NCBI GenBank assembly: GCA_964019415.1
Contig: OZ025877.1
Coordinates: 3,242,879-3,306,878, forward strand
DNA from: Ianthella basta
Lineage: Eukaryota; Porifera; Demospongiae; Verongiida; Ianthellidae
Length of the DNA: 64,000 nucleotides
Direction: 5' to 3'
Made by a program: the position numbers and the translations under genes. Within the stretch, counting starts at the first letter, position 1. Every line of letters begins with the position of its first letter. Shown in pieces: positions 7,701-47,900 of this stretch. The notes under the pieces are model-generated. The model saw nothing but the letters and a program-made list of their open reading frames with translations, made no database searches and had not been told where the DNA came from.

Positions 7701-10544
7701 TGACGTCATGGGATCATTGCGCAAGCCTAAAACCTGCATAACTTGAGCCCATCCTTCGGCCATCGAGCCGCTTTCACCTGCGTAAGACAGCGCTTTCCGC
7801 TTTATAGCTTATGTCACTCACAGCCTTCTACTTTGCTTTCGTTTTTTTCGGCGTTTTTTCGGCACATGGTTCTGGGGCCCAGGAGGAGTTTTGTAACAAA
7901 GGAATTCACTGCGAATTCCTTAATCTACTTACTACTTACTACGGCCTAGCTCCATTATAATAAGAAGACTAGTAGAGAAGGGCGCCGAAGGCGCTCTTCT
8001 CTGCTTCGGCGCCCAACGCAGGTGCTGTCGATGCCAGTGCTTCTGATGCAAAACACTTCCAAACCTGGCTACCAAGTGATAGCTATAGATGCTGTGGTTG
8101 CTGCTATCTATAGAGTTGCATGCAGCTGACTCCTCTTCCACCACGAATCACCTTCTGCAAGGTCAAGCGTCTTGTATTGCCCTCCAAATTAAACAGAACT
8201 GACTTATGATGGCCTCTTTGAGCTGATTCCTGGTTGTTCTCTTGAGCTGACTCCTGGTTGGTCCTTTGAGCTGACTCCCCTTGAGCTGGCTCCTGCTTTT
8301 CCTCTGGAGCTGACTCCTGTGAGTGAAGGTTGTGTGATGGTCTTGGAGTTCTGACAGTTGTCTTCGGTTCCTAAGAGCTCTCATCATCCCCAAATGTCTT
8401 GACTTCTTCGTTAGTCCGGTTTTGCCCTTAATGTTCGGCATATGCGCACTGCAACAACGTATTACAATGACGTCATGGAAACATTGCGCAAGCCTATAAC
8501 CCGCATAACTTGAGCCCATCCTTTCGCCATTGAGCCGCTTTCACTTGTGTAAGACAGCGCTTTCCGCTATATAGCTTATGTCACACACAGCCTTCTACTT
8601 TATGCTAAAACAATAGCAAAGAAGCCGTCGCACCATCTCCCCAGGAGAAGTTTTGTAACAAAAGAATTCACTGCAAATTCTGTAATCTACTTTGCTTTCC
8701 TCTGTAAAACAAAAATGGCGTCCCATAGTAACGTATGGCGAGTTGGCGCAAAACCTTCATTTCGCAAGCTTTCGCAGGAAAATCCAACCGAGGACACCCT
8801 CTGGATAACGCTTCAACATTCGGACTGCGTTTGCTGCGAACCCTTCGCACGATTCTGGAGATTAGTGCGGACAAAAAATTGGCTTAGCTCCATTATAATA
8901 AGATTATTATTTAAGTGCACCGTGTTGTATAATACAAACACTAGGGTGTCAGCCCCATGCAGCACTATGTAATAATTGAATGTAACAAAGCATCAAAAGA
9001 ATCACAATGGGCATAGTTCTTTAAGGGCAGCTTGTCCTTTTTCGCCACATCCTCTGCAGCGCCTTCTGTACTCCTCCATCTCCAGGGCCGGCGCCAGTAG
9101 TCCGGCAGGTCCGGCATTTGCCTACCTTTTCAGGCTAAACTCCAAAAAAGTTAAACTGAAATAGCTAGCAAGTACACAAAATGTGAATTGTGTGAATTGC
9201 CTGAATGAGCTTACCTGATTTTTTAATAACTAGAAGCATTGAAGGTATTTTACTTCTAAGTAATTTGAATGTCCATTTTTAGGGGGAAACATAACCAATT
9301 ACCGACGAGGTGTCCAAAAGCGCCATCTTATGAGCCAGCCATGTGATATAAGATTGCGCAACCACCCTCGTGATACAGGCCTCAAGGTTTAATTGTTTCC
9401 GGCTTTGTTCGTTCGGTTTGTTCAGCGCTGTGCTTGGAGAAAAGATCCTACGCCACAGTGACAACCTCAGCCAAACACTACAGTCAACAACTATGTCTGC
9501 AGTTGAGGGACAGAAGATCACATCTATGGTTGTCAATACTCTGAAAGCCATGCGATCAGATGAGGCTTTCGAGTTGTTCTGGAAGTACGTAACAGATATG
9601 GCTATGTCACTTGAAGTTGAAGATCTAGTTCTTCCAAGGAAAAGAAAAACGCCAAATCGCCTTACTGATGTAGGCAGCATGGGTGCAGAGACGGAGTATT
9701 TCCCCAGTACCCCAATTGAGCTTTATCGTCAACTGTATTTTGAAGCACTTGATTCTGCTACTTCTTGTATTGTAGACCGCATGGAACAACCAGGGTACAA
9801 GGTGTACTCAGTGCTGGAACAGCTTTTGCTGAAATCCTGCACAGGTGATGACATTGAGGACTGTTTCCAAGCTGTTTGCTCCTTTTACAAAGATGATTTT
9901 CAACCTGATGATTTACGTTCTCAGCTTACCACATTTGGAGTGAATTTTAGGTCCACTTTCAAGGATTGCAGCATTCAGCCATCACTTTTCGATATCAAGA
10001 AATATTTCTTGTCACTATCAAAGGGCCAGTGCCAACTCATCAATCATGTTTTGAGACTGCTCCAACTCATTTTGGTCATGCCTGCCACTAATGCCACATC
10101 AGAGCGATCATTTAGCGCATTGAGGAGAGTCAAGACATATTTAAGGAGCACCATGAGCCAAGTTCAGCTGAACAACCTTTTGCTGTTGCATGTCCATAAG
10201 AACTGTACTGACTCCCTAGATGCACACATAGTTGGCAATGATTTTGTTGAAGGGTCAGAACACAGACTACGAGTCTTTGGAAAGTTCTGATTATTATTTC
10301 AGTACTGTAATATTTTATATACAGACTCAATACATTACTCTGAGAGTAATGTATTGATTATATTTATTGACTTGCAAGTTTTCATCCATTTTTGCCGGAC
10401 CACCCGGAAACTGCTTGCTCCGGGCCTGATCTCTGCATGACTCCTCCAGTACCCATATCACCCTCTCTTCGTCCTTCATGCTCTCCCATCCCACCACTAT
10501 CTCATTCATAAGCCTTGCACATGTATGTGCATGTGTGCATAAGG

Positions 10545-10636
<92 letters not shown>

Positions 10637-13600
10637 AGGAGGTAAGTCATAGATGTCACTGGGTTCTACTAAAGGTCAGTTAGAACTGGCCCACAGGTGG
10701 CTGTCTTAGACAGGTTCCACTGTATACAGTGTAGATAGACAACTACTGAAAGACTCTGCCTACAGGAACAACAGTGTGGCCTAACTTTCAAACTGGAGGC
10801 CAGAATCAGCCTTACATGGAGGAAGTTGAGGAGGCTAGCCAGCAAACAATGCTTTTCCTCTCTCTTCCTTTCCATGGCACCACAGTTTTATGACCTCTGG
10901 TTATTCAAAAGTGGATCCCCCTTCATCCAATCATGTCAGCCATATGTAGGAAAAGATATAGGAAATATTTTATATTATAATTAGTGTATAAAATTCCTTT
11001 AGAATTAAAAGGGATTTAGGAATGGCCAGCAGAAAAAAGCATAGAAACAAGCTACAGTAACTCAACACAATGATGAACCACATTGCCATGAAGTTCGCTA
11101 TGCATTCCTAATTTTCTTGTATATCTACATGGACCCAAATGTCTAGCTAGCATAATCCCAAGTAGCTACAAGGAAATTAGTAATGCATAGCAAACTTCAC
11201 GGCAATGTGGTTCATCATGGTGTTGAATTACTGTTACTTGTTTCTATGCTTTTTCTGCTGGCCATTCCTAAATCCCTTTTAATTCTAAACAATTTTTATA
11301 CATTAGTTTGTACAGTTTTTGCATATCCAAAGGACTATGGTTACACCAGCTGTAGATTGATACCAGCACTGACTATACTCCTTCCTTAAATTAGTTGAAG
11401 ATTGTGCAAGCATCGAGCACAGTAATGCCACTTTAGATGAAGTGGCTGCCGTGTACCGTATACTGTACACCAGCATAACAAAATGGCGGCATTGGGGTAT
11501 CTTTAATGCACGGTGAGGACACATTTCCTGCCCGCTCCAGCGCTGTACTCATTGGATTGCCGCCGGCGCTCAGATCCAGATCCTCGTACACGGCTTAGGT
11601 CCGTAGATGCCCTGTGTCGAGCGCTAGGAGTGCGCAAAAATTTGGTGGGAAGAAAAAGAATATGAAAAGACAAAATAGGGTACGAGCAGCCTATGACACT
11701 TTTCTCTTATGTGTACTCTAGGTTGCCTTTGGGTACGTTGCTGTGGTCAATGCACCAAAAGAAGTCATGGCCTTTAATTGTTCTTTGCCACTGCCGTTTG
11801 GCTAGTTTAACTGAAGCGTCCTAATACATTAAGACAGGGACATCATTTTGAACTGGGCACATTCCTAAATAGATGTCACCAGCGTGACGTCTGATACATA
11901 TTAATTATAATATTATTTGGTATTATATAGTTTCTTTCTGTTCTTGTGCAGCAAGTGACAAACTTTTCAAAGGTAGTCACAAACTCAAAGGCAAAAATGT
12001 GTCAGTGAGGAATGCAAAGCCACCGACTGAAAAGCAAAGGGCTCAGGCTGTGTTCACCACTGGAAAGCAGTCAGTCAGCTCAACATTAACTTCAACACAG
12101 CACACTCCTCCCAAGAAAGTACCATCTCAGCAGGAGCCCCTGATGCCAGCTTTAAAGCCGAATCATTCTATAACAATGACTAGCAGTGAGCAGTTGCCGA
12201 TCCAGAGCAACCTTACTGGCACTACTGTCCAGTCGCAGTCAGAACCATGGCAGACCACTAACCAGGTACAACCTGTCCTGATGAGTCCGCAGGTTGGAAA
12301 TACACAGGCCCCATCCATGGACTTGGGCAGTACTACTAGACCCGTTGAACTTTCACAGTTTCAAAACATGAACATTTTTGAAGCTGCACAACTTCCACCA
12401 GCTCAATTCCCAATAGCTCGACCAGATAGTGAGCCAGCTCAATCATCTTCTCCTCTTACTACGAGCGAACCTAGTTTGCTAGATGCATCTCCGCATGCGA
12501 CAAATGCTTCCCAATCGCACATGCAAGCAAATGTATTTCAGGTTGCACCCACCTTACCCCTCTCTTCTCCGTTGGTGGACCCCTCTCAGCTTGGCAACCA
12601 GGGGAACGGGAACACAAGGATGACCATTTCACAGGAACCTCTCACTCAGTCAGTATTGGAAGAGTGGCGTACCTTGCAGAATGTGGGCCATCCCTCACAA
12701 GATGGCATGCAGCAGCATGCCCAGGGCAACACCGTGCAGCAGCAAGCTTTTCAAGCTGTACAACAGCAAGGTGTGTCACTGCACCTTGGCTATCCTGGAC
12801 TACAGTATCAATCTCTAAATGTACATCAGCATGGTGACTTTGCTGGGCTTCAGCACAGCACTCATGCCGGACCACAGCAAGGCAAAACTGTCACATTGCA
12901 GCGTGGTGTCCATACTAGCCTGCAGCATGGCACTCACACTGGGCTCCAGCACAACCTCTACGCTAGTCCGCAGCAAGGTGCCCACACTGGACCACAGCAG
13001 GGTGCCCACACTGCACCACAGCAGGGTGCCCACACTGCACCACAGCAGGGTGCCCACACTGGACCACAGCAGGGTGCCCACACTGGACCACAGCAGGGTG
13101 CCCACACTGGACCACAGCAAGGTGCCCACACTGGACCACAGCAAGGTGCCCACACTGGACCACAGCAGGGTGCCCACACTGGACCACAGCAGGGTGCCCA
13201 CACTGGACCACAGCAGGGTGCCTACACTGCACCACAGCAAGGTGCCCACACTGGACCACAGCAGGGTGCCCACACTGGACCACAGCAGGGTGCCCACACT
13301 GGACCACAGCAGGGTGCCTACACTGCACCACAGCAAGCTGCCCACACTGGACCACAGCAGGGTGCCCACACTGGACCACAGCAGGGTGCCCACACTGGAC
13401 CACAGCAGGGTGCCCACACTGGACCACAGCAGGGTGCCCACACTGGACCACAGCAGGGTGCCCACACTGGACCACAGCAAGGTGCCCACACTGGACCACA
13501 GCAGGGTGCCCACACTGGACCACAGCAAGGTGCCTACACTGCACCACAGCAGGGTGCCCACACTGGACCACAGCAGGATGCCCACACTGGACCACAGCAG

Positions 13601-16600
13601 GATGCCCACACTGGACCACAGCAGGGTGCCCACACTGGACCACAGCAGGGTGCCCACACTGGACCACAGCAAGGTGCCTACACTGCACCACAGCAGGGTG
13701 CCCACACTGGACCACAGCAGGATGCCCACACTGGACCACAGCAGGATGCCCACACTGGACCACAGCAGGGTGCCCACACTGGACCACAGCAGGGTGCCCA
13801 CACTGGACTGCAGCATGAATATAACCCTGGATTGTTGTACAGTGCACCTTTTGGTTTGCAGCCTGATACCCACACTGCACATGAACCACTGCAGGGTGTA
13901 TCAGCAGCACATCTGAACATGGGCGTTTTACAGTCTGGCAGTCAAGGAGAACTTGGGAAATCTTCTTCTGCCCCCATGGGATTTTCCCCCAGCAGCACTG
14001 GCAATCAAAGGGAACTATCCCTACCTATTGAAGAAAGTGTCAAATTGAATGCTCCTCACGAGTGGCCCTCTTTCTCTACTGAAAGTGAGGACACAGTGCC
14101 TGCAGCAGCTCAAGCTCAGCTATCTGGGCAGCATTCATTGCCTTCTAATGAAGGAGGAGTAGTGGTGCAAGTTGAAGGAGTGACAGGATTGACAAGTGAT
14201 AGTTTGGATTTGGCTTTTGATGATGAAGACAAAGGGGGTGGTGAAATTGATGATATTCAGTGGAAAGGGGATATAGCACTCATCAGCTTCAAAGAAAAGA
14301 GAAGTGAGTGCTTTCTATTTATCACATAGTGTGTGCACATAATTATGTAATATAATAATTATTATAGCTGTTCTCTGTATTTTACAGTTGCTGCACAGGT
14401 GGCATCCAAAGATATTTGGCGTGTAATGGGAAGAACAGTGAAAGTTTCTCTGTATCAGCCGAAGCCTGATCCACTACATGAGATCCTTGCTCAATATACC
14501 AGAGAGAACACACTAGTGCTGAGGGATCTACCTGCCTCGGTGACCGATGAACATCTTTTCACTCATCTTGAACTTGTTGCAGGGATGACGGAAGATGAAG
14601 ACTTCAAGTTTGATCGAAGGGAAGACAGTGCCTTGCTGAAACTGAACAGAAGTGAGTTAAATGATTTCTGTTTCTGGGATGATTTATAGCACTTGACTAT
14701 GCCTCATGCTATACAGTGGAACCCTGCCTTGCGGACACCCCTGAAAAGCGGACACCTCGATTACAGTGGAACCCCTATAATGCGGACACCCTTCGGAATA
14801 AGAGAAGTGTCCTGATTATGGGGGTGTCTGCATTTCAGAGGTATGGCTTAAAAGCCCATACGTTAAAGCAATCATGTAATATGCATGAAAAGTATCAAAA
14901 TAAGATGAATCTGTAAAGGTAGAGGTAGTTCGCTCGAGCACTCGACTCACACACCATTTCTGAAGTCAATTCTAAAGGGTAGCTGCTCGTGCTGAACTTT
15001 CCCATGTTAAAAACACTTTCAAAACCCTTAGTATAGACGATTTGCGGCACTCGTCAACTTCTGTGCTGTTCCTGTCACTTGTCAGAGGTAGAGGTGCAAA
15101 TCAGGGAGCGGCCATTTTCTGGCAGCTGATCGAATGTCCGGATTATCGGGTGGGGTTTATACAGAGTTGTATAGGGCGGTACACAGGGCGCTGTCCGTAA
15201 TACAGAGTAATGGGGTGTCCACATTTCAAGGAGAAGTTTATACAGGTAGAATAGGGCCAGTCATAGGGACTTTAGAAAGTGTCCTCATAATCGAGGTGTC
15301 CGCTTTTTAGGGGTGTCCGCAAGGCGGGGTTCCACTGTATGTGGACACTTTCTAAATTCCCAACAATTGCCCCGATTGTGAACCACTAGCAGCACTGGAC
15401 ACATTCACAGAACTGGTGAAGCACCTCCATTGCAATTTTACTATGGCATACATAGTATACTTTGATTTTTAGGTGCGAATGAGACTGCAAAATGGTTATT
15501 GACTCTGGAACCGGTCATTATTTTCATCAAGAGACGCAGCTATTCAATCGAAGCTGTATGTAGGATGCCTGAAACATAAGTGTTCTTTTTGAAAGTTAAA
15601 AGTTTGGCAACAAAGCATGCTTCAGGATTAAAGCAGTCAAAATTCCTCTGCCCACATAAGTCACTATAGAGCCAATTATAATTGCACCATTATTGAAGTC
15701 AGTTGTGTGTGCTTTGCTTTACCCAAGTTATACATAATTATTATAATACCATGCTGTATATTTCCCTTTAGACATGGCCCAGGATGTGTGGCAAAAGCTA
15801 TCTTCTTCATCCCGTCCACTAGTCAAGAAAGCAAAAACCATGCTCAAAGTAGAAATCTTGCCTCCTGCCAATGCAGTTAAACTAGAAGGCTTTAAGGATG
15901 ACTGCTGCAGCGAAGAGTTCTTAGAGATGTACTTTAAGAATAAGAAGAAATCGGGTGCAGGAGGGAATGTATCTGTGGTAGTTACTGGACGACAGCAGGC
16001 AGCTATCACCTTTGAAGATATACATGGTGAGTGACATTAAAGCCAGTACCATGCACCTATGTATACATTTTATGCATTACATCAGTCTGTGACTTTGGCT
16101 GCTGCTTTTTTCTCCCCTTAACTATGTATTTACAGTGATCCCAAGTGTGTTATCCCACAACCATTCCAAGGTGTTGGGACAGAGAGTATCAGTGAAACTC
16201 TACCACCCCATTCTTAGTGACTGGTTCAAGGCAGATGGATCAAGCGCCGGCCAACCAAAGCGCGCAAAATCGATGCAGCACAAGTTTTTTACAGTGCCGG
16301 TCTCTGCTGCCATTCACCATCACTTCAAGAGGACTGATTTCATGTCCCCACTGAATGAGAAACTGATGGGTTTATGTGGTAAAGCTACACTCACTGAAAA
16401 GGGCATTTTGGTAGAGCCAACTACTGGCAGTGAATGGAATGAGCAGTGGGTTACTCAGTGCAAGGAAGCAGCTGAAAAATTCAAATCATCTATTTCTGAG
16501 TTGTTCCTTGATGTGCCACCTGGTGTCATGGACAAAGTGTATCGTGTCATTGCGGCCCAGGTCCACAACCCGAATGTCACCATATCCCCAACAGAGACTG

Positions 16601-22600: not shown

Positions 22601-25600
22601 GCGTACGCGTGATGGCTTGAAGTGTCTGAAGATCCTCCATGTCTTAGCTCCACAGTATAGTGGTGGCCTTGCCAGGACAGTATTAGAGGCACTGAAACGT
22701 GCAGACCAAGAGGGGCTACGTTCAGTTGCCCTCCCAGCTATTGGCACAGGTGAGCATGGCTTCTCATCTGCTCAGGCTGCAGAAGGGATTGCTGATGGTA
22801 TTCTGCAATTCAGCAAAAGTGTACACAACAATGTTGCTAGCATAAAGGTTATCCTGTTTCAGAGGGACCAGTTTGGTAGCTTCGCTTGGGCTTTCGAAGA
22901 GGCAGGAAAGAAAAAGGGCTTCCTAAAAAGGGCCTTTGATAGGATGACCAAAGGGGCAAAGTGGGCAGTGGAATCATTTCTTGGTGTTCCTCCTACACCC
23001 CACTACTCTGGATCCTCTCAGCAGTCTGCCTCAGTGAGATACTCAGAGACCACTGTATTGTGTATCAAAGTGTATGCTGGCGATACGTCTGCCATTGACA
23101 ATGTCTTCAAAGAAGTGGACATGGTAATTGCAGAAATGATAAAGGAAGATTATGTCAAAGATGATAAGGTCAACAAGCTATCGGCAAAGGCAGAAGCTGA
23201 TTTGACAAGGCAAGCAGAAATTCACCATGTAAGGATGTCTATTGACAGAGCCCCTCTGAACCAAGTACGTTTCAATGGTGAAAGGGCAGATGTGCTGTTA
23301 ATGAAGAGTGCTGTGCAGGAAGAGTTGCGACAAATTGAGAGTGAGGAAAATCGGTTGAAGGAGGCCGATCTCCTGACAAGCAAGTTTCAATGGCAGTGGA
23401 AGGACGTTAGTGGGAACTTCCAGAATTACGAAGCAATGTCCAACTTTGAAATTGAAGAGGCATATGGTAAACACAAGAAATCTGTTGTGGTTAAAACAGA
23501 AGCAGGACCAAGAAGCATTGACTTTGACCAAATGTATGAAATGGATGTGCGACCACCGTATGGATTCACTACTGTGAGGAGGAGGGACTTTGAACAGGAG
23601 AGGAAGGAAGGCGAGCACCCTTCGTCCTGGGTCCCCATGCCTGTGGACCCTGGTACTGGGCGAGAAGTTGAGTGTCATGTTGTGCAGCTCTCACCTACTA
23701 GCAAGGAATATAGTGATGTTGCTACTCAGTTCAACCTCACGATGGGGGGTGGAGGGCTGTCCACACGTGTAGCCTTTATGCAGGGATTAGGTCAGGCTAA
23801 CCAGGGAAGAATACAGAAGATTGAACGCATTCAAAATAGCAAGTTGTACGCACAGTACATTGCCAGGAAGAAAGCAATGGACAGAGCCAATCCAGGACAC
23901 CAGAATGAGAGGCAACTGTTTCATGGTTGCAGTCTTGCTGCAGTTGATCCTATCAATCAAGGAGGCTTCAATAGAAGCTATGCAGGGCAGCATGGTAAGA
24001 TTCAGTGTTCATATAGGGAAGAATGAACTATCCACTAAAGAATAGTAAACATGCCACAAAAATACAGAAACTAGGAAACTGTGTTACATGTCATGGACCT
24101 GTATGAGTGAAAGTGCTGTGAGACATTTTGTGGTCTTGGAGTATTCTATAGTCTCTGTTCTTTGCACCCTTATGACTGTGTATCGATTATATGGTAGATA
24201 AACGATAAGGGCTTCTGCCAGTGAAATTTCCCTGTCCTTTCTCCTCCTGATCGTGTCTGCATGAAGATTTAATGTAATGATTCAAGAAGTCAATGTGATG
24301 TTATAGTAAAAGTCGCAAGTAGTCTATGAAATTATAGTAAAAGATGCCGGAGAAAATGTACATCATGCATGCATATAAAGAGAATGGATAATGTGAATAA
24401 TAGATATGTGAAGTGAATATACATGTGTCAATGTGATAGTAAAAGTGACTGTTGAAAAGAGGATTCTGAAGTGTGTATGCCTGCCAATATGCACTTGCTA
24501 TGACCTGCCTCTCCTTGAAGTGAATGTTGCAAAGTGGAGCACTTAACACTGCTTTAATGTCCAGGTCGCCCTGTTGGTTCCCAGTCATTTGGTCAAGCTG
24601 TTGGGGCCGAACACTCGTCTCAGCTGGCAAGCGGGTGGCAGAATGATTGGAAGCCATAGCGCAACAAAGCAAGCAGCGAATCTGGAATTTGACAATCAGG
24701 CTGGGTGCGCGGTTGCCCAAAAAGCCCAACTGAGCGCCAGAGGCTGAGTCATGTAATAGGCTTACACAATGTGCAATCAGGTTTGTACAATGTACGGACA
24801 GACATAGGAATATATAATAGTATATATATTAAGAATTTCCTTTAACCCTATAGGCTCGAACTTTAATCTTCGCGCCATGCACTCAGTATGCGGAGTTAAA
24901 ATGGTGGCGCGCAGAGACTAAATGACTTGAGCCAATTGCACACACTTTGTGGCGTTGTCACTGCCAGAAAGGTGAAGATGACAGGAGGATAGTTCAACGC
25001 TGTCCCCGAGAATACCTAGGGCTCCTAATTTGCCAGTTCAAGAATGTTTGCAAGCACTTATGTAGGAAGACGATGAGAACGGCAAGTTTCTGCATGCTGT
25101 AAAGGCTAGAGATTGCTTATTTCCCCTCTACCATGGTAGCAATTTGAACAAGAGTCAATAGACTCTTGTTCAAATTGCCTTTGTTCCATAGACTGCTACA
25201 CAGTGTGACATTGGTATTAGGGAGAACGCGGGCAAATACGTTCAAACTTTAACAGTTGATTGCAGGCACTGGGTGCTACAAGGAGACAGGAAAAGCAAGC
25301 CAGGTAAGGTCCAACCACTGCTGTAGGTCCTCTGAGAAAGGTAATCCGCTTCAAGGTTTGTAGCAAAAGAAAGCAAACTTAACCTCTTAACCAAACTCTT
25401 AAACTGTGCCAATTTCTATGATGACTAAACTCATCATTTGCGCTTACGTGTGTACAAATTTATGATGAGTAAACTCGGCATTCGGGCCTAAAGTAGTCTC
25501 GCGTAGCCCAGACCGCAATAACCGGGTGGAAAGGGTCTGGGAGTTTTCTCAAGTGTAACTGTTCAATGTCTGTGGGAAGCCGGACAAGGTGTGAATCTAA

Positions 25601-28600
25601 CACCTCTTTGATGTGGTACCACAAGTCGTCATAAGCGAGTCAGCGAAAATGACGCCGAGTGTTTGTGCGAGCGAAGACGAACTGGAACGAGACCGTATTA
25701 CCGCGATAGTACGTGTGGCAGCAGCCGAAGCAGGGTTCCAAGATCTAAAGCCAGAGAAGATGCAAGCCATCTTAGAATTCATCGATGGTCGTGATATTTT
25801 CGTGTCGCTTCCTACTGGCTACGGTATATCTCTTATTTACGGATTGCTGCCCTTGTCATCGAGCGAGATCCGAAAATACATCTGCCGCCATTTGCAGTAG
25901 CTTACAGAAGTAGCAGTTCGCCATCTCAGTCTTCAACGCTATATAATAATGCAGACGTACAGGCGCATCCCCGGTGTAACACCTAATCAACACCTCTGAA
26001 TTATCGTCCCACAATGGTGTTAAGTAAACAGTGGCTGTGCGTGGGTGGAACAGCTTGTGCTTAGGAAAACTCCCAGACCCTTTCCTCCCTATTACGCAAC
26101 AGCAGAAATGGAGGAAAGGGTCTGGGCTACGCGAGACTAGGCCTAAAGGGGTTAAATTAATAGGGATTTAGGAAAGGCTAGCAGAAAAAGCATTAGAACA
26201 AGCTAGCTACTCAACACTATAATGTACCTCATTTCTGTGGAGTTCATTTGCCATTCCTAATTTCCTTGTGCATGGAATTTGAACCAGCATGTTAATCATA
26301 AACGTTTTGGGTGGGTTAATTACAAGAAAATTAGGAATGTCGAATGAATTCTACAGAAATGAGGTATAATATTGTGTTGAGTAGCTAGCTTGTTTCTATG
26401 CTTCTTCTGCCTGCATTACTATTTTTTAATTAAAGGAAATGTTTAATATACTAGTTTGTATGCTTTTTGCATTTCCAAAGGACCATGCTACATTATTTCT
26501 TCTTGAGCTGGCTATTAAGGATGTTGGTCAAGCATTGCTTGAGGGTCAAGCAACGCTTGACTATAAGGCCATAATGTATGCTAACGCAACAAAATGGCAG
26601 CATTTGGGTATCTTTAATACATGGGGAAGACAAACTTTGTACTCGCTCCAACGCTGTGTTCATTGAATTGCTACCGGCACTCAGATCTTACTCCTCTGCG
26701 TATGCATGTAAGTAGTCTTAGAAAATGGGGTCAATAGGTGCGCTGTGTTGTACACTAGGAGCACACAAAATTCTGTGGGAAAAATAATATGAATAGAACA
26801 AATGGGTACAAGCAGCCTATGACGTTTTTGTCTTACATGTTTTTCAGGTTGCTTTTGGGTGTGCTGCCGTCTTCAGTATATTCAAAGAAGCCTATCCATG
26901 GCCCTTAATTGTTCTTTGCCACCACCATTTGACTAGTTTCGCTGAAGCGTGCTAATATATTGTAATAGGAGACACTAATTTTATTGGACACATTCCTAAA
27001 TAGAAGTCATGGGCATGACGTCTGATATGGAAATATTCAAAAATGTTGAATAGGCTGCAATCTTTGGCCTCGCTTTGCTTGCTAATGCTCGCCACTTGGC
27101 AATTATTGCCAAGCGGCGAGCGTAAGTGAGCGAAGCGAGGCCATTGATTGCTGTCTATTTTAGCTTCGGCAATATATTTATATCCAATCTATGATTGAAA
27201 AGTCCTGAGTGGCTAGGTAAGTCTGACATCATCCAAGTTCGTTCACACTAGCCAAAATTTCACAAGTTATCCAGACGTTTCGGCAGCTTTCAGCCACCTT
27301 CATCAGTGAATGACATAATACAGCACTCCTATAGTAGTTGCTTGGAGTGCTTCTATGCCGTTGTCTTCTTTGACACGTTTGAAAAGTCCTGAGTGGCTAG
27401 GTAAGTCTGACATCATCCAAGTTCGTTCACACTAGCCAAAATTCCACAAGTTATCCAGACGTTTCGACAGCTTTCAGCCACCTTCATCAGTGAATGACAA
27501 AATACAGCACTCCTATAGTAGTTGCTTGGAGTGCTTCTATGTAGGAGTGCTGTATTTTGTCATTCACTGATGAAGGTGGCTGAAAGCTGCCGAAACGTCT
27601 GGATAACTTGTGAAATTTTGGCTAGTGTGGACGAACTTGGATGATGTCAGACTTACCTAGCCACTCAGGACTTTTCAAACGTGTCAAAGAAGACAACGGC
27701 ATAGAAGCACTCCAAGCAACTACTATAGGAGTGCTGTATTTTGTCATTCACTGATGAAGGTGGCTGAAAGCTGCCGAAACATCTGGATAACTTGTGAAAT
27801 TTTGGCTAGTGTGAACGAACTTGGATGATGTCAGACTTACCTAGCCACTCAGGACTTTTCAAACGTGTCAAAGAAGACAACGGCATAGAAGCACTCCAAG
27901 CAACTACTATAGGAGTGCTGTATTTTGTCATTCACTGATGAAGGTGGCTAAAAGCTGCCGAAACGTCTGGATAACTTGTGAAATTTTGGCTAGTGTGAAC
28001 GAACTTGGATGATGTCAGACTTACCTAGCCACTCAGGACTTTTCAAACGTGTCAAAGAAGACAACGGCATAGAAGCACTCCAAGCAACTACTATAGGAGT
28101 GCTGTATTTTGTCATTCACTGATGAAGGTGGCTGAAAGCTGCCGAAACGTCTGGATAACTTGTGAAATTTTGGCTAGTGTGAACGAACTTGGATGATGTC
28201 AGACTTACCTAGCCACTCAGGACTTTTCAAACGTGTCAAAGAAGACAACGGCATAGAAGCACTCCAAGCAACTACTATAGGAGTGCTGTATTTTGTCATT
28301 CACTGATGAAGGTGGCTGAAAGCTGCCGAAACGTCTGGATAACTTGTGAAATTTTGGCTAGTGTGAACGAACTTGGATGATGTCAGACTTACCTAGCCAC
28401 TCAGGACTTTTCAAACGTGTCAAAGAAGACAACGGCATAGAAGCACTCCAAGCAACTACTATAGGAGTGCTGTATTTTGTCATTCACTGATGAAGGTGGC
28501 TGAAAGCTGCCGAAACGTCTGGATAACTTGTGAAATTTTGGCTAGTGTGAATGAACTTGGATGATATCCAATATATGTATCGCACGACACGTGGCTGCGC

Positions 28601-29561
28601 ATGTGCTCTGTCACGTGATGGCTTGTCTTTCAGGGGGTACTTCTGCTCCTGTTCATTGCTCATCTTTGCCGACATGCTCCCGCTGAAGAGGGACACAGAA
28701 GGGAAGCAGATGGCAGTGGCAATGACGCGGCTGCATCCAGCATGCCGAGGGGCCACGCCGGTGCGTGCGACTTGGCATGGAGACAGTGGGGCAAAGAGAG
28801 ACCAGACTAGAAATGAATGCCGCAGAATGGCGCAAGGCTACTGGCCTCGGCAACGGACGAGCAGCAGCAGCCCAGGCTTGAGGAGCTTTGGCAGTAACAA
28901 ACAAGGCCCTTGGCTACTAAGACAGCTCCAGCCTGTAACATCACATTACACTTGTCTACTGGCCACATACTATTCATGCTGCGAGGCAATTCTTATGCAC
29001 TTAGCGTATGCCTAGTATACATTCACTGAAGTAGGCACATGCAGGTAGTCGCAATGTCTGATTCATTTATGATTTGTTGGCAAGCTTATTCTGCAATAAG
29101 CCCACGTTGCAGTCTTCCTAGCCATTCAGGACTTACTGTATTTCTGCAGCATGTCAGTCTGTTATTGTTTTGTGCGTTTGCATGCATGTTTGCATATGTT
29201 GTATGGTACGTAATAAAGTATGCATGTCACTGCATGTATGGTCTGATTATCACCCTTGCATCTTATTGCTACAGGCACAGCTTATGGCAAAGGAGTCTAC
29301 TTTGCTAGAAATGCCTCCTACTCTTCAAGTGCCAGATATGCTGCCCCTGACCACAATGGCCACCAGCATATGTACTTAGCCCGGGTGCTGACTGGGGAAT
29401 ATACCACTGGGCAAAGTGGTTATCTGGTGCCTCCTGCAAAGGACCGCAACAACCCGGCAGTTTTGTACGACTCAGTAGCGGATAATGTTCAAAATCCTAC
29501 CATGTTTGTAATCTTCTATGACCCTCAGGCCTATCCCGAGTACCACATTGAGTTTTGTTGA
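4604..29561 (+). CDS. Gene B: complete PARP14-like macro-PARP, eight coding exons
   Basis: Joined exons 4604-4784, 11952-14303, 14388-14651, 15772-16026, 16136-18399, 18627-18860, 22014-23994 and 29275-29561 total 7,818 nt (2,605 residues), all with gt/ag introns and a continuous frame. Approximate domain order: RRM-like 1 (6-85); Gln/Ser/Pro/Thr-rich linker with 35 eight-residue repeats (403-682); RRM-like 2-4 (797-1045); middle region with KH-like segments (1060-1530); macrodomain 1 (1536-1720), 2 (1763-1926) and 3 (1973-2156); WWE (2300-2375); ADP-ribosyltransferase (2389-2605). The triad is His2487, Tyr2519, Met2587. Human PARP14 has 1,801 residues; the excess is mainly the repeat linker. 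The order matches PARP14, but orthology as opposed to a lineage-specific expansion is not shown. The expected activity is mono-ADP-ribosylation of proteins or nucleic acid, with macrodomains that read or erase ADP-ribose. Confidence 0.85.
5462..6214 (-). mobile_element. Non-autonomous pogo-like element with TA target sites
   Basis: Ends CCGTATTTGCTCTATTA and the complement of TAATAGAGCGAATACGG are flanked by TA (5460-5461 and 6215-6216). Subterminal copies of cgccgctctctattag are repeated several times inside both ends. The only coding remnant is the C-terminus of a pogo/Tigger-type transposase on the minus strand. Confidence 0.72.
5690..5977 (-). pseudogene. Pogo/Tigger-like transposase, C-terminal remnant
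   Basis: The minus-strand frame reads VDWEALPTETVRKSFRACGI, GTEDGEIHCLKEGGVA and an acidic tail (FADVEEDEEELEENEL). This matches the region after the DDE core of pogo-family transposases, where W..LP.E.I.KSF..CGI is conserved. Directly upstream the expected CLQWVKE is in another frame, so a one-base shift breaks the gene. The DNA-binding and catalytic parts are absent. Confidence 0.65.
6781..6960 (+). mobile_element. Tigger-type MITE fragment
   Basis: Begins tacagtgaaacttatgtaag and continues ttaggcagccacctctgtaa. The same sequence occurs in the opposite orientation near 45650-45785, and its end near 10659-10724. The right terminus is not clear. Confidence 0.5.
7579..7930. repeat. Direct repeat block, copy 1
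   Basis: About 350 bp (ctaagagctctcatcatccc ... ggaattcactgcgaattcc) repeated at 8370-8694 with few changes. Both copies contain caatgacgtcatgg, with a perfect CRE-like palindrome. A further shared tag (tagctccattataataaga) follows each copy, at 7948 and 8884, so a larger segment was duplicated in tandem. Confidence 0.7.
8213..8320. repeat. Short minisatellite, gagctgactcctg units
   Basis: Four to five imperfect units of about 21-27 bp, each containing gagctgactcctg, between the two copies of the duplicated block. The minus-strand open frame across it (SQLKG-type repeats) is not supported as a gene. Confidence 0.5.
8370..8694. repeat. Direct repeat block, copy 2
   Basis: Second copy of the 7579-7930 block, with a short deletion in the middle (around 8450, after gcactgcaacaa) and a diverged 3' part. 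Confidence 0.7.
9083..10428 (+). mobile_element. hAT transposon, internally deleted
   Basis: Imperfect inverted ends start CAGGGCCGGCGCCAGTAGTC (9083) and, complemented, CAGGCCCGGAGCAAGCAGTT (ending 10428); both continue to GGTCCGGCA. The content is the C-terminal part of a hAT transposase on the same strand. No clean 8-bp target duplication is seen: the flanks share only atctc. Confidence 0.75.
9370..10290 (+). pseudogene. hAT-family transposase, N-terminally truncated
   Basis: A 306-codon open stretch; its first ATG is at 9493. The end carries the hAT C-terminal dimerisation motif (MPATNATSERSFSALRRVKT, with RSTMSQVQLNNLLLLHVHK). It resembles the zinc-finger MYM/DUF4371-type transposases that are common in invertebrates. 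The zinc finger and most of the catalytic core are missing: full-length proteins have 600-800 residues. Stop at 10288-10290. It is likely dead, although the retained part has no internal stop. Confidence 0.75.
10551..10635. repeat. (CA)42 microsatellite
   Basis: An essentially uninterrupted CA dinucleotide run of about 84 bp beside the hAT remnant. Confidence 0.95.
10981..11897. repeat. Palindrome-headed dispersed repeat, copy 1
   Basis: The head (10981-11305) is a foldback with arms of about 145 bp (ttagtgtataaaattccttt ... ccttttaattctaaacaatt). The body continues to gtgacgtctgata. Copy 2 is at 26158-27028 in intron 7. The shared body words (ttaattgttctttgccac, acattcctaaatagatgtc) identify the family. 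No protein is encoded. Confidence 0.68.
11952..14303 (+). CDS. Gene B exon 2: RRM tail, repeat-rich linker, start of second RRM
   Basis: The acceptor ttcttgtgcag ends at 11951. The first codons (SDKLFKGSHKLKGKNVSVRN) complete RRM 1. A long disordered Ser/Thr/Pro/Gln-rich linker follows. It includes an older degenerate Gln/His repeat from about 12830, then 35 exact 24-bp units (12977-13816) encoding GAHTGPQQ variants. After the linker, VVVQVEGVTGL and the acidic AFDDEDKGGGEIDD start RRM 2. The exon ends in phase 1 at a gtgagt donor (14304). The homologous exon of gene C is only 618 nt and has no such repeat, so the expansion is specific to gene B. In the repeat all six frames are open, but only this one joins the flanking exons. 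Confidence 0.82.
12977..13816 (+). repeat. Coding minisatellite, 35 units of 24 bp (GAHTGPQQ)
   Basis: Exactly 840 bp, 35 head-to-tail 24-bp units with no frame break. Unit types are GAHTGPQQ (most), GAHTAPQQ, GAYTAPQQ, DAHTGPQQ, AAHTGPQQ and a diverged last unit, GAHTGLQH. Units 24-29 and 30-35 share one six-unit order (GAY, GAH, DAH, DAH, GAH, GAH), a higher-order 144-bp duplication. The block is expected to be unstructured, rich in Gln, Pro and His. Confidence 0.95.
14388..14651 (+). CDS. Gene B exon 3: end of RRM-like 2, start of RRM-like 3
   Basis: A symmetric phase 1-1 exon of 264 nt. It begins AAQVASKDIWRVMGRTVKVS, closing RRM 2. It continues with NTLVLRDLPASVTDEHLF, the beta1-alpha1 start of RRM 3, and stops after ALLKLNR at the phase-1 donor gtgagt (14652). 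The matching exon in gene C is 46145-46420 (for example TIVIEDVPEGIDKEHL). In PARP10/14-type proteins such RRM-like domains bind nucleic acid or proteins; the exact ligand here is unknown. Confidence 0.82.
14714..15337. mobile_element. Tigger/pogo-type MITE (TA target site)
   Basis: In intron 3 of gene B. The ends are inverted repeats of about 40 bp beginning CAGTGGAACCCTGCCTTGCG on the left and the complement of GCGGGGTTCCACTG on the right, each flanked by TA (14712-14713 and 15338-15339). A second CAGTGGAACCCC start with TA lies inside at 14765, so a related copy is nested or duplicated. There is no coding capacity. CAGTGGAACC ends are typical of Tigger-like mariner elements. Confidence 0.8.
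15772..16026 (+). CDS. Gene B exon 4: end of RRM-like 3, start of RRM-like 4
   Basis: A symmetric phase 1-1 exon of 255 nt. After the acceptor at 15771 it encodes MAQDVWQKLSSSSRPLVKKA and MLKVEILPP, closing RRM 3. Then NAVKLEGF and EEFLEMYFKNKKKSGAGGNV start RRM 4, up to AAITFEDIH. The phase-1 donor gtgagt is at 16027. Gene C has the equivalent exon at 55565-55807, with the near-identical motif YFKNKKKSGGG. Confidence 0.82.
16136..18399 (+). CDS. Gene B exon 5: RRM 4 end, KH-like middle, macrodomain 1
   Basis: The largest uninterrupted coding stretch apart from the linker (2,264 nt, phase 1 to 0). The start VLGQRVSVKLYHPIL closes RRM 4. About 450 residues follow that fit the repeated alpha/beta KH-like units described for PARP14; this is inference, as no single motif is diagnostic. 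Macrodomain 1 covers RILNIMQGDLTEFSADVMVN, then NAANEQLNHVGGIAG and the SSGIFGVP loop. The Asn-Ala-Ala-Asn and GGIAG motifs that hold ADP-ribose in hydrolase-type macrodomains are intact. The last codons (LKKGSLTSYQ) begin macrodomain 2. The donor is gtgaag at 18400. Confidence 0.85.
18627..18860 (+). CDS. Gene B exon 6: N-terminal part of macrodomain 2
   Basis: A phase 0-0 exon of exactly 78 codons, from attcag|GCTGAT to gagcag|gtatgc. It encodes ADVYVNTAHNQLNLNHGAVA through IIHTVGANYQGRGCEQ. The NAAN motif of macrodomain 1 is replaced by NTAHNQL, so ADP-ribose binding may differ between the domains. The homologous exon in gene C is 59084-59323. A broken copy is found at 34354-34541. Confidence 0.85.
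19019..19712. mobile_element. Mutator-like MITE with perfect 9-bp target duplication
   Basis: Ends tagtctggcttgctagacc (19019) and the complement of its counterpart (…agtgagctgggcta, 19712) are flanked by an identical 9-bp duplication, aacaattag (19010-19018 and 19713-19721). Each end carries a second, inward-facing inverted segment (ggtctggcagc on the left; ctagactgtccc on the right), so each end can form its own hairpin. The architecture is shared with the elements at 25494 and 47866. The 9-bp TSD suggests the Mutator superfamily. No transposase is present. It lies in intron 6 of gene B. Confidence 0.75.
20272..21030. mobile_element. TIR element, 759 bp, 7-bp target duplication
   Basis: Terminal inverted repeats ccaggggggtcagacaaagtc and the complement of gaccttgaccgacccccctgg bound the element. 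The flanks repeat gttggga (20265-20271 and 21031-21037); an 8-bp reading is possible if one end is shifted. No transposase is seen. The superfamily is not assigned; a hAT-type element with 8-bp TSD is one option. Confidence 0.65.
21047..21138. mobile_element. Remnant end of a 9-bp-TSD Mutator-like element
   Basis: The segment taggtgtgaaataatc ... gggtgcttagggactgtct matches the right arm of the element at 19019-19712 (taggtgtgaactaatc ... agactgtccc) with many differences. Only one arm is present. Confidence 0.4.
21156..21787. mobile_element. piggyBac-type MITE (TTAA target)
   Basis: TTAA at 21152-21155 and 21788-21791 flank inverted ends cccattagggcccaa and ttgggtcctaatggg. Just inside lie short inner repeats (acgcaaatttgcgtc). 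CCC next to TTAA is the piggyBac hallmark. There is no transposase. Short open frames inside are not supported as genes. Confidence 0.8.
22014..23994 (+). CDS. Gene B exon 7: macrodomains 2 (end) and 3, WWE, start of PARP domain
   Basis: From ttccacag|AATATGG to catg|gtaag, phase 0 to 1, 1,981 nt. It completes macrodomain 2 (SVAFPALGSGNLGFP), encodes macrodomain 3 (NVDIVNGDISADDSEGIINT, ALPAIGTGEHGF) and a WWE domain (FQWQWKDVSGNFQNYEAMSN ... VRRRDFE). It then enters the ADP-ribosyltransferase domain, whose His is in LFHGCS (23922-23924). Macrodomain 3 has NTASE in place of NAAN. WWE domains bind ADP-ribose-type ligands in related proteins. In gene C the same region is split by an intron after REKKEG; gene B runs on without it (ERKEGEHPSSW). 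Confidence 0.86.
24000..24841. other. Start of intron 7 of gene B
   Basis: AT-rich intron DNA after the exon-7 donor. Nothing is recognised here apart from short chance reading frames. Confidence 0.4.
25494..26139. mobile_element. Mutator-like element carrying a RecQ helicase fragment
   Basis: Perfect outer inverted repeats of about 20 bp (tagtctcgcgtagcccagac / complement at 26120-26139) are flanked by a perfect 9-bp duplication, ggcctaaag (25485-25493 and 26140-26148). A second inverted pair (ggaaagggtctgggagtttt and complement) lies just inside, as in the elements at 19019 and 47866. Between the ends is a piece of a RecQ-type helicase gene rather than a transposase, as in Pack-MULEs. It lies inside an older piggyBac-type element in intron 7 of gene B. 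Confidence 0.75.
25613..25900 (+). pseudogene. RecQ-like DNA helicase fragment (captured)
   Basis: The 95-codon frame contains FQDLKPEKMQAILEFIDGRD and IFVSLPTGYGISLIYGLLP. This is the N-terminal Q-motif/Walker A region of RecQ (Bloom-type) helicases. The Walker A lysine is replaced by isoleucine (GYGIS where GYGKS is expected), which would abolish ATP binding. The frame starts at a non-ATG codon (the first ATG is at 25650) and stops after about 20 further residues, so only a small part of a helicase is present. It is probably non-functional cargo. Confidence 0.7.
26158..27028. repeat. Palindrome-headed dispersed repeat, copy 2
   Basis: A foldback head (26158-about 26440; arms gggatttaggaaaggctagc ... 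and its complement near 26400) is followed by about 590 bp. The whole matches copy 1 in intron 1 (10981-11897), down to the closing tgacgtctgata. Family members thus sit twice in gene B. No coding capacity is seen. Confidence 0.65.
27066..27142. repeat. Long hairpin
   Basis: Nearly perfect palindrome: ggcctcgctttgcttgct ... and its complement around the centre ggcaattattgcc. It is probably a small foldback element or the tip of one. Confidence 0.6.
27269..27311 (-). ncRNA. Hammerhead ribozyme-like motif, inverted unit 1
   Basis: Minus-strand copy: CTGATGA is the complement of 27300-27306 and GAAAC of 27277-27281. All core positions match the plus-strand units. Confidence 0.6.
27453..27495 (-). 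ncRNA. Hammerhead ribozyme-like motif, inverted unit 2
   Basis: Minus-strand copy with CTGATGA at the complement of 27484-27490. One stem II base differs (GCTGTC for GCTGCC), still allowing a wobble-containing stem. Confidence 0.57.
27562..27604 (+). ncRNA. Hammerhead ribozyme-like motif, unit 1
   Basis: Stem I ATTCA/TGGAT (27562-27566 with 27600-27604). Core CTGATGA (27567-27573), one extra A, stem II GGTGGC-loop-GCTGCC, then GAAA (27592-27595). The stem III strand ACGT is self-complementary, suggesting pairing between two copies. The predicted cleavage site is after GTC (27599). Activity is not proven; the extra A before stem II departs from the consensus. Confidence 0.65.
27746..27788 (+). 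ncRNA. Hammerhead ribozyme-like motif, unit 2
   Basis: Same layout 184 bp on; the self-complementary ACGT after GAA is ACAT here, so stem III is weakened. Confidence 0.55.
27930..27972 (+). ncRNA. Hammerhead ribozyme-like motif, unit 3
   Basis: Same layout; the stem II loop has a G-to-A change (ggctaaaagctgcc). Core residues are intact. Confidence 0.6.
28114..28156 (+). ncRNA. Hammerhead ribozyme-like motif, unit 4
   Basis: Same sequence as unit 1 throughout the core. Confidence 0.62.
28298..28340 (+). ncRNA. Hammerhead ribozyme-like motif, unit 5
   Basis: Same sequence as unit 1 throughout the core. Confidence 0.62.
28482..28524 (+). ncRNA. Hammerhead ribozyme-like motif, unit 6
   Basis: Core as in unit 1. 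The unit is cut off about 40 bp downstream, at the right target-site repeat. Confidence 0.62.
28578..29274. other. End of intron 7 of gene B
   Basis: About 700 bp between the satellite and the last exon. A 154-codon open stretch (28551-29015) overlaps it but has no recognisable domain and starts inside the satellite, so it is not called a gene. Confidence 0.4.
29275..29561 (+). CDS. Gene B last exon: C-terminal half of PARP domain
   Basis: The acceptor gctacag ends at 29274; the exon enters in phase 1, forming HGTAYGKGVYFA with exon 7, and ends at tga 29559-29561. It holds the triad tyrosine (29298-29300), the donor loop (ARVLTGEYTTGQSGYLVPP) and the terminal strands FVIFYDPQAYPEYHIEFC. The third triad residue is Met (29502-29504), where human PARP14 has Leu, PARP10 has Ile and PARP1 has Glu. 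It lies 5.3 kb from exon 7. The intron between them contains the nested transposons and the hammerhead satellite. A variant polyadenylation hexamer attaaa follows 8 bases after the stop. Confidence 0.85.
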
Positions 29562-44900: not shown

Positions 44901-47900
44901 AAAGGGTTGGTTCTCCAATACCAACTTCACAACAGGGTTGAAAACCTTGCCGACGTTTCGACCAGATGCTCTGGTCTTTTTCAGGGCGAAGATCTGAAGA
45001 AATGTCGGCAAGGTTTTCAACCCTGTTGTGAAGCTGGTATTGGAAAACCAACCCTTTCTGATGCCTGAGCCAGTTGAGAAGCCCTCACTTCATAGGGACT
45101 GATTAACAGGACTAAACCACACTCACGAGAACACACTCCAAATGATGATTATATTACTAAAAGGTGACTCCGAAAATCAAAACCTGCTTAGCTTTTAGAA
45201 AAGTAGGGGTGAACCCAGGGGGGCTATGTGGGCTTGCTTCCCCCCTTGGCCCAGATCTAAAACATGTTTTGTTAGCAAATTGTACTGAAGTGTACATCCA
45301 ACAGGGTGTAGTGGCCTAAATCATCGAAATAACTTTAGAAGAGCTACTGTAAGCTTAATAGAGTCTTGTGGGCTGCACAGGGAACTGGATTTAGTACGTT
45401 TTTAGTTCTGGCTGCCAGCAGCCATTTTTAATTATGTCATTTTTATGATTGTGCAATAACTAATGAAACACTCAGCCCCCCCTCATAAGTTGGACTAGAC
45501 CTGCCACTGAGAACAGATTCATCAAACCAGTGCCTACCAGCCAGTTCAACAGTATTTTACAACTACCCCTCCCCCCCCCCCCAACCACCACCACCACCAG
45601 AGAAATGTTAACATATTACACTGGCAGCCATGTACCTGTGGGCCAGTTTTGTTGACCTTTATAGAGAGGTGGCTGCTCTACAGAATTAGATTGCTATGTA
45701 TTAGTGCTAGTGTGACAAGAGAGGCTGGCTGTTCATGAGAGGTGGCTGCCTAACACAGAGTCAGCCTTCTTAGACAGGTACAAGGCAGCCCAATATGTAT
45801 ACTAGCAGTCCTTACAAAAATTCATGTCAAGTCATAATGTGATAGTTTTCTATCAACACTAGGTTTACATGTCTTGAGGCTATCAGTTATTATAATTTTA
45901 TCAAATTTATTGAGCTGTGAAGATTGCTCAATACTGTACCCGCTAATTTTTGTAGTCAAAAAATTGTACACAAAACTTTAAAGTTGCTATAATTAGTACC
46001 CATCAAATGGACTGTTCATAATACTAAATTTTGTTGCCACTAAAATTAACGTAACGTAACCTAACGTAACAATTTGTACAATGCATGGACGTTATAGAGT
46101 TCTCTGTATATTTGGAATCTCACTTATTACATGTTTCTGTGCAGTTGCTCAACGTGTTACCTCAAAGGAAACTTGGGAAGTCTCTGATGTTGTATTGAAA
46201 GTGTTACCATTTCAGCGCAAACATGATGCTGTACAGGCGATGGTGGAGAATTGCACTCCAGATAACACGATAGTAATTGAGGATGTTCCTGAAGGAATTG
46301 ACAAAGAACATCTTGTGATGTACTTGGAGAAGGCAACTAAACTAGAGGAAAATGAGGAGTTCACTGTGAAGCACAAAGGAACAAAAGCCCTGATGGTGCT
46401 TCAAGGAGATCTTGAAGAAGGTTAGTGCACATCTGTGTAATTTCATACACGTGTGGCAAGTGATCTAGATTGTGGTTATGGATTGATATTATGTGCTTTG
46501 TATGTAATACATATAGTACGGTAGGGAGGTCTATAGCCGATATATAGGACCGAGGTAAATATGAGCGCCGACGTCCTATATAGAGGCTATAGACCGACCT
46601 ACCGTACTATATGTCTTATATTGTATGGTGAGTGCGCAACAGGAACGAACAGTTCAACCTTCCGCAGCAATATCGAGGCCAGACCAACTCTCCAGAGATG
46701 ACGCCATTTGCATTCGATAAGCGCCTACATTACGTCACTGCTCCTTCTGGGAACGGGCTACGGCACCATTGCATTCAGAAGACACCTCCGTGATGTCACA
46801 ACAGGCTTCAGGGCTGACCAACGAGAATACTGCGCGCCTTTTGGCAGCACGCTGACCAATTAGATTACAGAGAACCAAATTCAAAATAATGCACAGTCAG
46901 CAGTTTTGGTTGTGGCCGTGACAGGGTGCTGCACGGAGGATCTTGAAAGCGCTTCTTTTCTGGCAGAACACCAACTTCGATGCGGACTCAGAAGTAGAAG
47001 GAGCAATTTTAATCACATTTGGGAGCTTTCGACGATATCCAGCTGGACTCGTTTTTAGTCATCTGAAGAAGTCGCTCAACTGACCGTGTCTGCGCGTCTT
47101 CCACGCCATAGTTTTGCGCAACAGAGCCGGACACAGTGCTCGGTTCCTAGAATACGTCCCTTTACGCATGTATTCTGGTATCTTGTCCAACTTACTTTCC
47201 TTAGTGCGACGATTCTTTGCGGTCACATTTTTTCTTGGAGCGTCAAGATCCTCCGCAGCACTGATTGTCACGGCCACAGTGAAATGGTAAGACTGCTTCG
47301 CCTGACATTGTTTAGTACACACATTTGGCTCTGGTTTCATGAGATTTCTTCTTGATATCAGACCTGTTGTGCAATCAGACACTTGATATCGTGATATCAG
47401 ACCTCTTTTCAGGTCTATATCACATATATAGGAGCACCTGCCAATGCTTAACTCCCTATAGTTGCACAATCACCACACTATATGTGTATATATTAGTGTG
47501 TCCACTGGAGGAGTACCTAGTCAGACTGAAAAGGTAATGGTGAACCGAGTAACGGTAGTGTTTAGTGGTTCCATTTATTGTTTATTGGTTAGCCTTTAGC
47601 AATTATTGGTTAGCGTTTCACCCCTAGCTGTACAGTTTATTTGGTACAAAGCATTCTCGATCGATTCTGAAGTTTCAGTTGGCAGCACAGAGAAGATGGT
47701 TTGTCTATGCATCATGCAGCTGTACTTTAAGCGATTGTATTTTATTTTCTTGCTCAGTCTTGCCACCTAAATGGTACATGTGATTTACAGCCAACGATAG
47801 TGGCCTGATGCCCTCTTTGTGCTAGCGCAAGAGGCAAAAATGACCAGACCACGTGAGTATGTTGCTAGTCTAGGGGCCAGACCAAATTTCCAAGAGAAAT

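Follow-up and report, generated by a model that had tools for sequence, protein, structure and literature searches.

An inverted hammerhead array in a PARP14-like intron of Ianthella basta is a non-autonomous deletion derivative of a Penelope-like element

The window, by which we mean the whole 64,000-nucleotide stretch analyzed here (G000:C10:3242879-3306878, within a 209-Mb genome), carries a PARP14-like gene with macro and WWE domains and the beginning of a PARP domain; in this domain search the PARP and KH_PARP14_2 scores fall below the cut-offs. Its PARP catalytic domain is split by a 5.28-kb intron on the plus strand (23995..29274), bounded by a GTAAG donor after the exon that ends at 23994 and by a CTACAG acceptor, reading TTGCTACAG, before the exon that starts at 29275. 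This last exon is 81% identical over 101 residues to a PARP exon of the upstream gene and scores 42.7 bits with the Pfam PARP model (cut-off 26.7). The intron contains an array of hammerhead-ribozyme layouts, six units of which run in the sense of the host gene, as the initial annotation had proposed. Elsewhere in the window lie a 24-bp minisatellite of 35 copies in open coding sequence of the PARP14-like gene (12971-13815), a hAT transposase piece (9352-10287, plus strand), a DDE_Tnp_1_7 transposase piece (51677-52066, plus strand) and an integrase-bearing retroelement piece (62900-64000, minus strand). Adjoining the array on its left is an imperfect inverted repeat (27038-27170), which matches the MIR841 model far below its cut-off and is perhaps another small foldback element.

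TRF assigns the array a period of exactly 184 bp from 27195 to 28563-28565, in two parts with 98% and 99% matches to that period and 0% indels. The succession of CTGATGA, stem II and GAAAC occurs eight times, twice on the minus strand (5' ends at 27306 and 27490) and six times on the plus strand (27567, 27751, 27935, 28119, 28303 and 28487), at steps of exactly 184 on each strand, which bears out the eight layouts and the unit length first described. The strict pattern ending in CGTC was found seven times in the window, compared with a mean of 0.00 in 100 shuffles. The 5-bp stem I reported earlier (ATTCA/TGGAT) is present, although one of its pairs is T.G. Similarly, the self-complementary ACGT that had been taken to let two units act as a dimer could pair between units, but the copy at 27751 reads ACATC rather than ACGTC, so that the palindrome is present in seven of the eight units.

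The array consists of two oppositely oriented arms. The left arm (27195..27541, minus strand) measures 347 bp, or 1.9 units, and runs from unit position 112 at its outer end to 134 at its inner end. The right arm (27542..28563, plus strand) measures ~1020 bp, or about 5.6 units, with its inner end at unit position 160 and its outer end at 77-82, a value that varies with the assignment of the bases common to the unit and the duplication; TRF places this end at 28565, unit position 79. The arms are enclosed by a target-site duplication, whose left copy ATATCCAATCTATG (27180..27193) is identical at 13 of 14 positions to the 14-bp right copy ATATCCAATATATG (28564..28577). With two of its eight units antisense, the array is not the simple satellite suggested at the outset, nor a dispersed one, but one head-to-head inverted insertion.

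The hammerhead motif recurs throughout the genome. The pattern CTGATGAN10-28CGAAACGT has 679 genome matches versus 7 for the reversed pattern, and a shorter CGAAAC form has 1778 versus 98. The pattern prescribes CTGATGA, GAAACGT and the C that closes stem II, and these letters are therefore no evidence in themselves. For the stems, we read 51 motifs (37 distinct), a hand-picked and deliberately varied sample drawn from the first 100 listed of the 679 places, four loci of the array's family and the window, leaving out motifs with a second internal CTGATGA. Pairs 1-4 of stem I were formed in 130 of 148 cells, against 81 ± 4.8 after shuffling (2000 shuffles, highest 97) and 45-56 when the arms were slid; the fifth and sixth pairs were formed in 15 of 37 motifs each. 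Pairs 2-4 of stem II were formed in 102 of 111 cells, against 72 ± 3.7 in shuffles.

The 31 motifs from outside the array's family give a similar picture, with 83.5% of cells paired (59.1 ± 2.2 shuffled, 0/500; 17-45% after sliding) and 78 cells with both partners changed (31.8 ± 4.1, 0/500 shuffles). The number of pairs altered on both sides (8 versus 7.8 shuffled, 388/500) shows no excess and the number of further pair types (23 versus 19.6, 23/500) no clear excess, so that two of five pair measures do not stand out from the shuffles; the motif sequences are related, and none of these shuffle counts is readable as a probability. A covariance model built from these 31 motifs recovers all eight array copies (E 1.2e-10 to 4.5e-8). 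On the minus strand these are the motifs at 27274..27306 (40.9 bits, E 1.2e-10) and 27458..27490 (38.2 bits, E 9.7e-10), the latter with a C-to-T change in stem II that keeps a G.U pair. On the plus strand, the motifs at 27567..27599, 28119..28151, 28303..28335 and 28487..28519 each score 40.9 bits, the one at 27935..27967 with a single loop II change scores 39.8 bits, and the ACATC copy at 27751..27783, which has lost the ACGT palindrome, scores 33.1 bits (E 4.5e-8).

The extra A after CTGATGA, feared in the initial annotation to break the fold, is real, but the same position holds A in 35 of the 37 distinct motifs, G in one and T in one. According to PMC3705267, the CChMVd(+) hammerhead likewise carries an extra A between A9 and G10.1, at the cost of a moderate loss of trans-cleaving rate, although its host molecule is a viroid and not a retroelement.

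A covariance search had been named as the deciding check, and its outcome depends on the model: the Rfam type I hammerhead (RF00163) gave no match on the array at the gathering threshold, at E <= 1 or at E <= 10, whereas the model of the genome's own motifs found all eight copies. Otherwise Rfam returned only weak miRNA-like matches over 3 kb and, over 371 bases, a snoRNA match due to chance. Since RF00163 does find canonical hammerheads in the same genome (eight matches at 35.9-41.0 bits, from 5 of the 10 loci searched among 15 fetched), its miss on the array is a matter of subtype. The array motif combines a CUGAUGA/GAAA core with covarying stems I and II and has no stem III, and from these sequence features it very probably belongs to the minimal class of hammerheads in Penelope-like elements (PLEs) reported to act as a dimer. 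Small PLE-associated hammerhead variants reportedly cleave as dimers, a finding attributed to Lunse and co-workers in 2017. Like the array, such dimer hammerheads leave no room for stem III, and the ACGT of the array could pair between copies. Minimal PLE hammerheads lacking helix III are already known, and so is the action of newt and PLE hammerheads as dimers (PMC6155905, PMC7761336, PMC6466107 and PMC7229834). A PDB sequence search returned nothing useful. The canonical matches come from a separate type I family, CTGATGAGCCCC...GGGCGAAAC, at L076-L079 and L081 (35.9-41.0 bits with RF00163); L076-L078 are head-to-head pairs, and the place of stem III is taken by ACAGCTGT, likewise a palindrome without a loop.

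The 33-nt motif of the array has at least 118 genome copies at up to 3 mismatches, eight of them in the array, compared with none for the reversed control. We fetched 24 sister loci (20 plus four), of which 16 have outward-facing terminal pairs, 12 contain the GIY-YIG stretch YIGQTGR and 8 the reverse transcriptase (RT) stretch YVDDT; loci lacking these stretches are short or truncated. In all three frames tested with Pfam, RVT_1 (E 5e-5, 2e-4 and 0.009) precedes GIY-YIG (E 0.025-0.055), every score lying below the curated cut-offs. A database search with the parent frame returned 3347 homologues, and among the 120 listed, 118 carry PF26215, which we take to be a domain linked to PLEs, and 3 carry GIY-YIG. 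A single frame in which RT precedes GIY-YIG is the hallmark of a Penelope-like element, and the link to PLEs in the initial annotation holds up, the motif forming the ends of such an element elsewhere in the genome. A reading of the inverted repeats as the ends of a DNA transposon, with the hammerhead likeness due to chance, has next to no probability: outward-facing pairs and target duplications do resemble terminal inverted repeats, but the ends differ in position (about 79 and 113), the motif pattern outnumbers its reverse by 679 to 7, and the reading is refuted by the enclosed RT and GIY-YIG frame and by the covariation of stems I and II.

Comparison with the sister elements reveals how the 184-bp unit is composed. 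One sister locus, L012, has a direct copy measuring 2635 bp from hammerhead to hammerhead, with one stop between two pieces of its frame. Unit positions 1-156 align to the 5' side of L012 and other sisters, comprising the hammerhead, the leader, the ATG at position 75 and 27 codons; an example is the retained ORF start at 27641..27722 (plus strand), which runs from this ATG to unit position 156. Positions 157-184 correspond to the 28 nt that precede the 3' hammerhead. Relative to L012, ~2.45 kb is absent, nearly the whole RT/GIY-YIG frame, and the parent thus appears, from these alignments, to have lost about nine tenths of its length while keeping the putatively self-cutting RNA motif. The deletion junction (unit position 156/157) occurs seven times in the array, for example at 27722..27723 on the plus strand, and each arm contains it in more than one unit. 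At this junction the two pieces abut directly, and no overlap is needed (microhomology was considered). Splicing was rejected as the origin of the deletion because the 5' side is followed by GG rather than GT at both loci in which the continuation is visible. With 27 codons kept and the body deleted, the unit has no RT/EN coding capacity of its own, and the array is a non-autonomous PLE deletion derivative present in both arms of one insertion.

A junction 36-mer, searched with up to 3 mismatches, was found at seven places in the assembly, all seven in the array; the same search found the junction nowhere else and no donor tandem array of the 184-bp unit. The array is therefore neither a satellite nor an established retrozyme family, as had been supposed. 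Metazoan non-LTR retrozymes, as presented by Cervera and de la Pena 2020 (PMC7229834), resemble it in their short ribozyme units in tandem, their lack of a usable ORF and their long target duplications, and their mobilization by PLEs or other non-LTR elements has been proposed there. Their hammerheads, however, are canonical type I, their copies numerous and dispersed, and their circles proven, while the array has one locus, a minimal hammerhead and visible PLE coding sequence. That the array belongs to such a family, spreading through 184-nt circular RNAs, is accordingly quite improbable: its unit size (within 170-400 nt), tandem layout, GC content under 50% (0.435) and target duplication of more than 4 bp match the metazoan retrozymes of PMC7229834, but the assembly lacks the dispersal of a tandem family, the unit retains PLE coding sequence, the hammerhead is of the PLE type without stem III, and the 184-nt circles remain putative.

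The end points of the array agree with those of its sisters. We parsed 16 head-to-head insertions, the window included, and in 15 of them one end falls at unit positions 78-90 and the other at 112-118; in the window they fall at 112 and about 79. Two values depend on the alignment: the end parsing places an end of L074 at 125, but its match runs to about 118 and then meets the duplication, and L019, the sixteenth insertion, gives 107/113 in the end parsing and 81/113 in another alignment. L020, outside the 16, is an exception that is head-to-head with ends at 80/80. The other eight loci comprise direct pairs (L012, L015 and L028), a distant pair (L022) and single copies (L024-L027). In 14 of the 16 insertions the ends are bordered by direct repeats of 9-15 bp that differ at one position at most (14 bp with one mismatch in the window), whereas of 660 position pairs drawn at random from these loci 29 show such repeats; this search found no flanking repeat at L017 and L019. 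L028 holds two direct copies 406 bp apart with ends at 114 and 79, and its BLAST rows show no 184-bp step. By eye, no array-like near neighbors on the same strand were seen among the 100 listed of the 679 pattern places. Very short head-to-head PLE insertions occur at L072-L075, spanning 226-273 bp between direct repeats of 9-14 bp and containing little beyond two inverted pLTR ends.

The interval between the two end points of the array, 113-79 = 34, fits the optional tail of PLEs when set beside published elements. This tail is 31 bp in Adineta (PMC3846280), and for the anole PLE PMC11167929 describes reverse transcription that starts internally, an interval of 30-40 bp between the sites that corresponds to the tail, and cutting and extension of both DNA strands. 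PLEs whose pLTRs carry minimal type I hammerheads share with the array the same kind of core near the ORF start, end points separated by a tail, head-to-head inverted copies and target duplications (PMC3846280 and PMC11167929). From Adineta vaga, PMC3846280 reports a Pen2 copy that has an internal deletion and inverted pLTRs. The array has a parent frame in the order RT then GIY-YIG, a tail of 30-40 bp and a target-site duplication. Unlike those PLEs, its body has been deleted to a 184-nt cycle that is repeated 1.9 and 5.6 times.

Taken at the level of sequence, the comparisons establish parentage, deletion, end points, duplication, head-to-head arms, a junction found in the assembly at this array alone and stem covariation, and from them we infer one retrotransposition event that copied a circular or multimeric 184-nt RNA. 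We consider it very likely that the array is a single insertion of an internally deleted PLE copied from such a template. The deletion of ~2.45 kb would have left a 184-nt cycle made of the hammerhead, the leader, the ORF start with both sister end points and the 28 nt. A PLE reverse transcriptase, presumably supplied in trans by a helper, would then cut the intron DNA on both strands, and cDNA synthesis would begin internally on the RNA, at unit position 112-113 for one strand and at about 79 for the second. With the ribozyme cut only 46 and 80 nt away from these presumed start sites, cDNAs as long as 1.9 and 5.6 units would require a circle or a head-to-tail template that had not been cut. 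The template may have been a circle formed by hammerhead cleavage and ligation or an uncleaved multimer, and the enzyme would have travelled along it for 1.9 rounds in making one cDNA and 5.6 in making its partner. Finally, these target-primed cDNAs would be joined head to head and the 14-bp target duplication filled in.

The substitutions within the array bear on a different history, in which the PLE brought in few units at insertion and the tandem repetition arose later by DNA slippage or unequal crossing-over. The units are 98-99% alike, those at 28119 and 28303 are identical, and the junction occurs at one locus in the assembly, all of which would suit later amplification. However, several junctions lie in both oppositely oriented arms, so that amplification would be needed in both, or copied between them. 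Moreover, the array carries 7 substitutions in its 1371 bases, every one private to a single unit and none common to two, a pattern that fits the birth of the whole array at once as well as a quick amplification at the DNA level. On balance we regard later amplification as rather unlikely and prefer the single insertion from a circular or multimeric template.

Predicted folds provide a cautionary view of the putative cleavage step and of any release of 184-nt RNAs from the intron transcript. In a tandem transcript, the two motifs evaluated have stem I probabilities of 0.01-0.03 and stem II probabilities of 0.09 and 0.97, whereas a motif with 10-60 nt of flank gives 0.16-0.92 for stem I and 0.5-0.99 for stem II. 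The two-strand minimum for two motifs is a plain duplex and not a double hammerhead. When the whole array is folded as RNA, the structure of minimum energy pairs nearly all of the 347-nt antisense arm with sense units, and about one third of the sense sequence could therefore be locked in duplex. These models speak against easy folding of the hammerhead. For the anole PLE, PMC11167929 indicates that the hammerhead (HHR) cut only with protein present and that HHR mutants left insertion in vitro unchanged; taken together, release of the template by the ribozyme would not be required. The same source gives the first 172 nt of the ORF as needed for the template in vitro, compared with about 82 nt kept in the unit.

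A more specific version of the single-insertion reading is that the array records, as a fossil, rolling-circle reverse transcription, in which a PLE reverse transcriptase copied a 184-nt RNA, excised by dimeric hammerheads of its own and circularized, from both target strands simultaneously. We advance this tentatively, as a possibility that we hold to be somewhat doubtful. If true, it would represent the birth of a retrozyme from a PLE by a single internal deletion. If the starts are the observed end points, a cut linear monomer would give a short product only, and a longer copy implies an uncut multimer or a closed circle; the two arms would then count the enzyme's rounds on each strand. In this respect, the array looks like a first step by which PLEs could become retrozymes, and it resembles an expected precursor of metazoan retrozymes, although we do not file it as a retrozyme. 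According to PMC7229834, the origin of retrozymes and the reverse transcriptase that copies them are open, PLEs being the favored but unproven helper. A literature search by titles and abstract openings found no PLE-derived deletion retrozyme, which does not prove absence. At this locus, parent, deletion and product are all readable within one genome.

Further hammerhead-like copies were observed outside the array. A second, diverged PLE motif lies in the window at 44947-44989 on the minus strand (23.9 bits, E 5.1e-5 with our covariance model), at the center of an inverted repeat with long arms. In addition, G000:C23:1618463-1654748 holds four motif copies with the same loop change at ~12-kb steps, which suggests a 12-kb tandem duplication.
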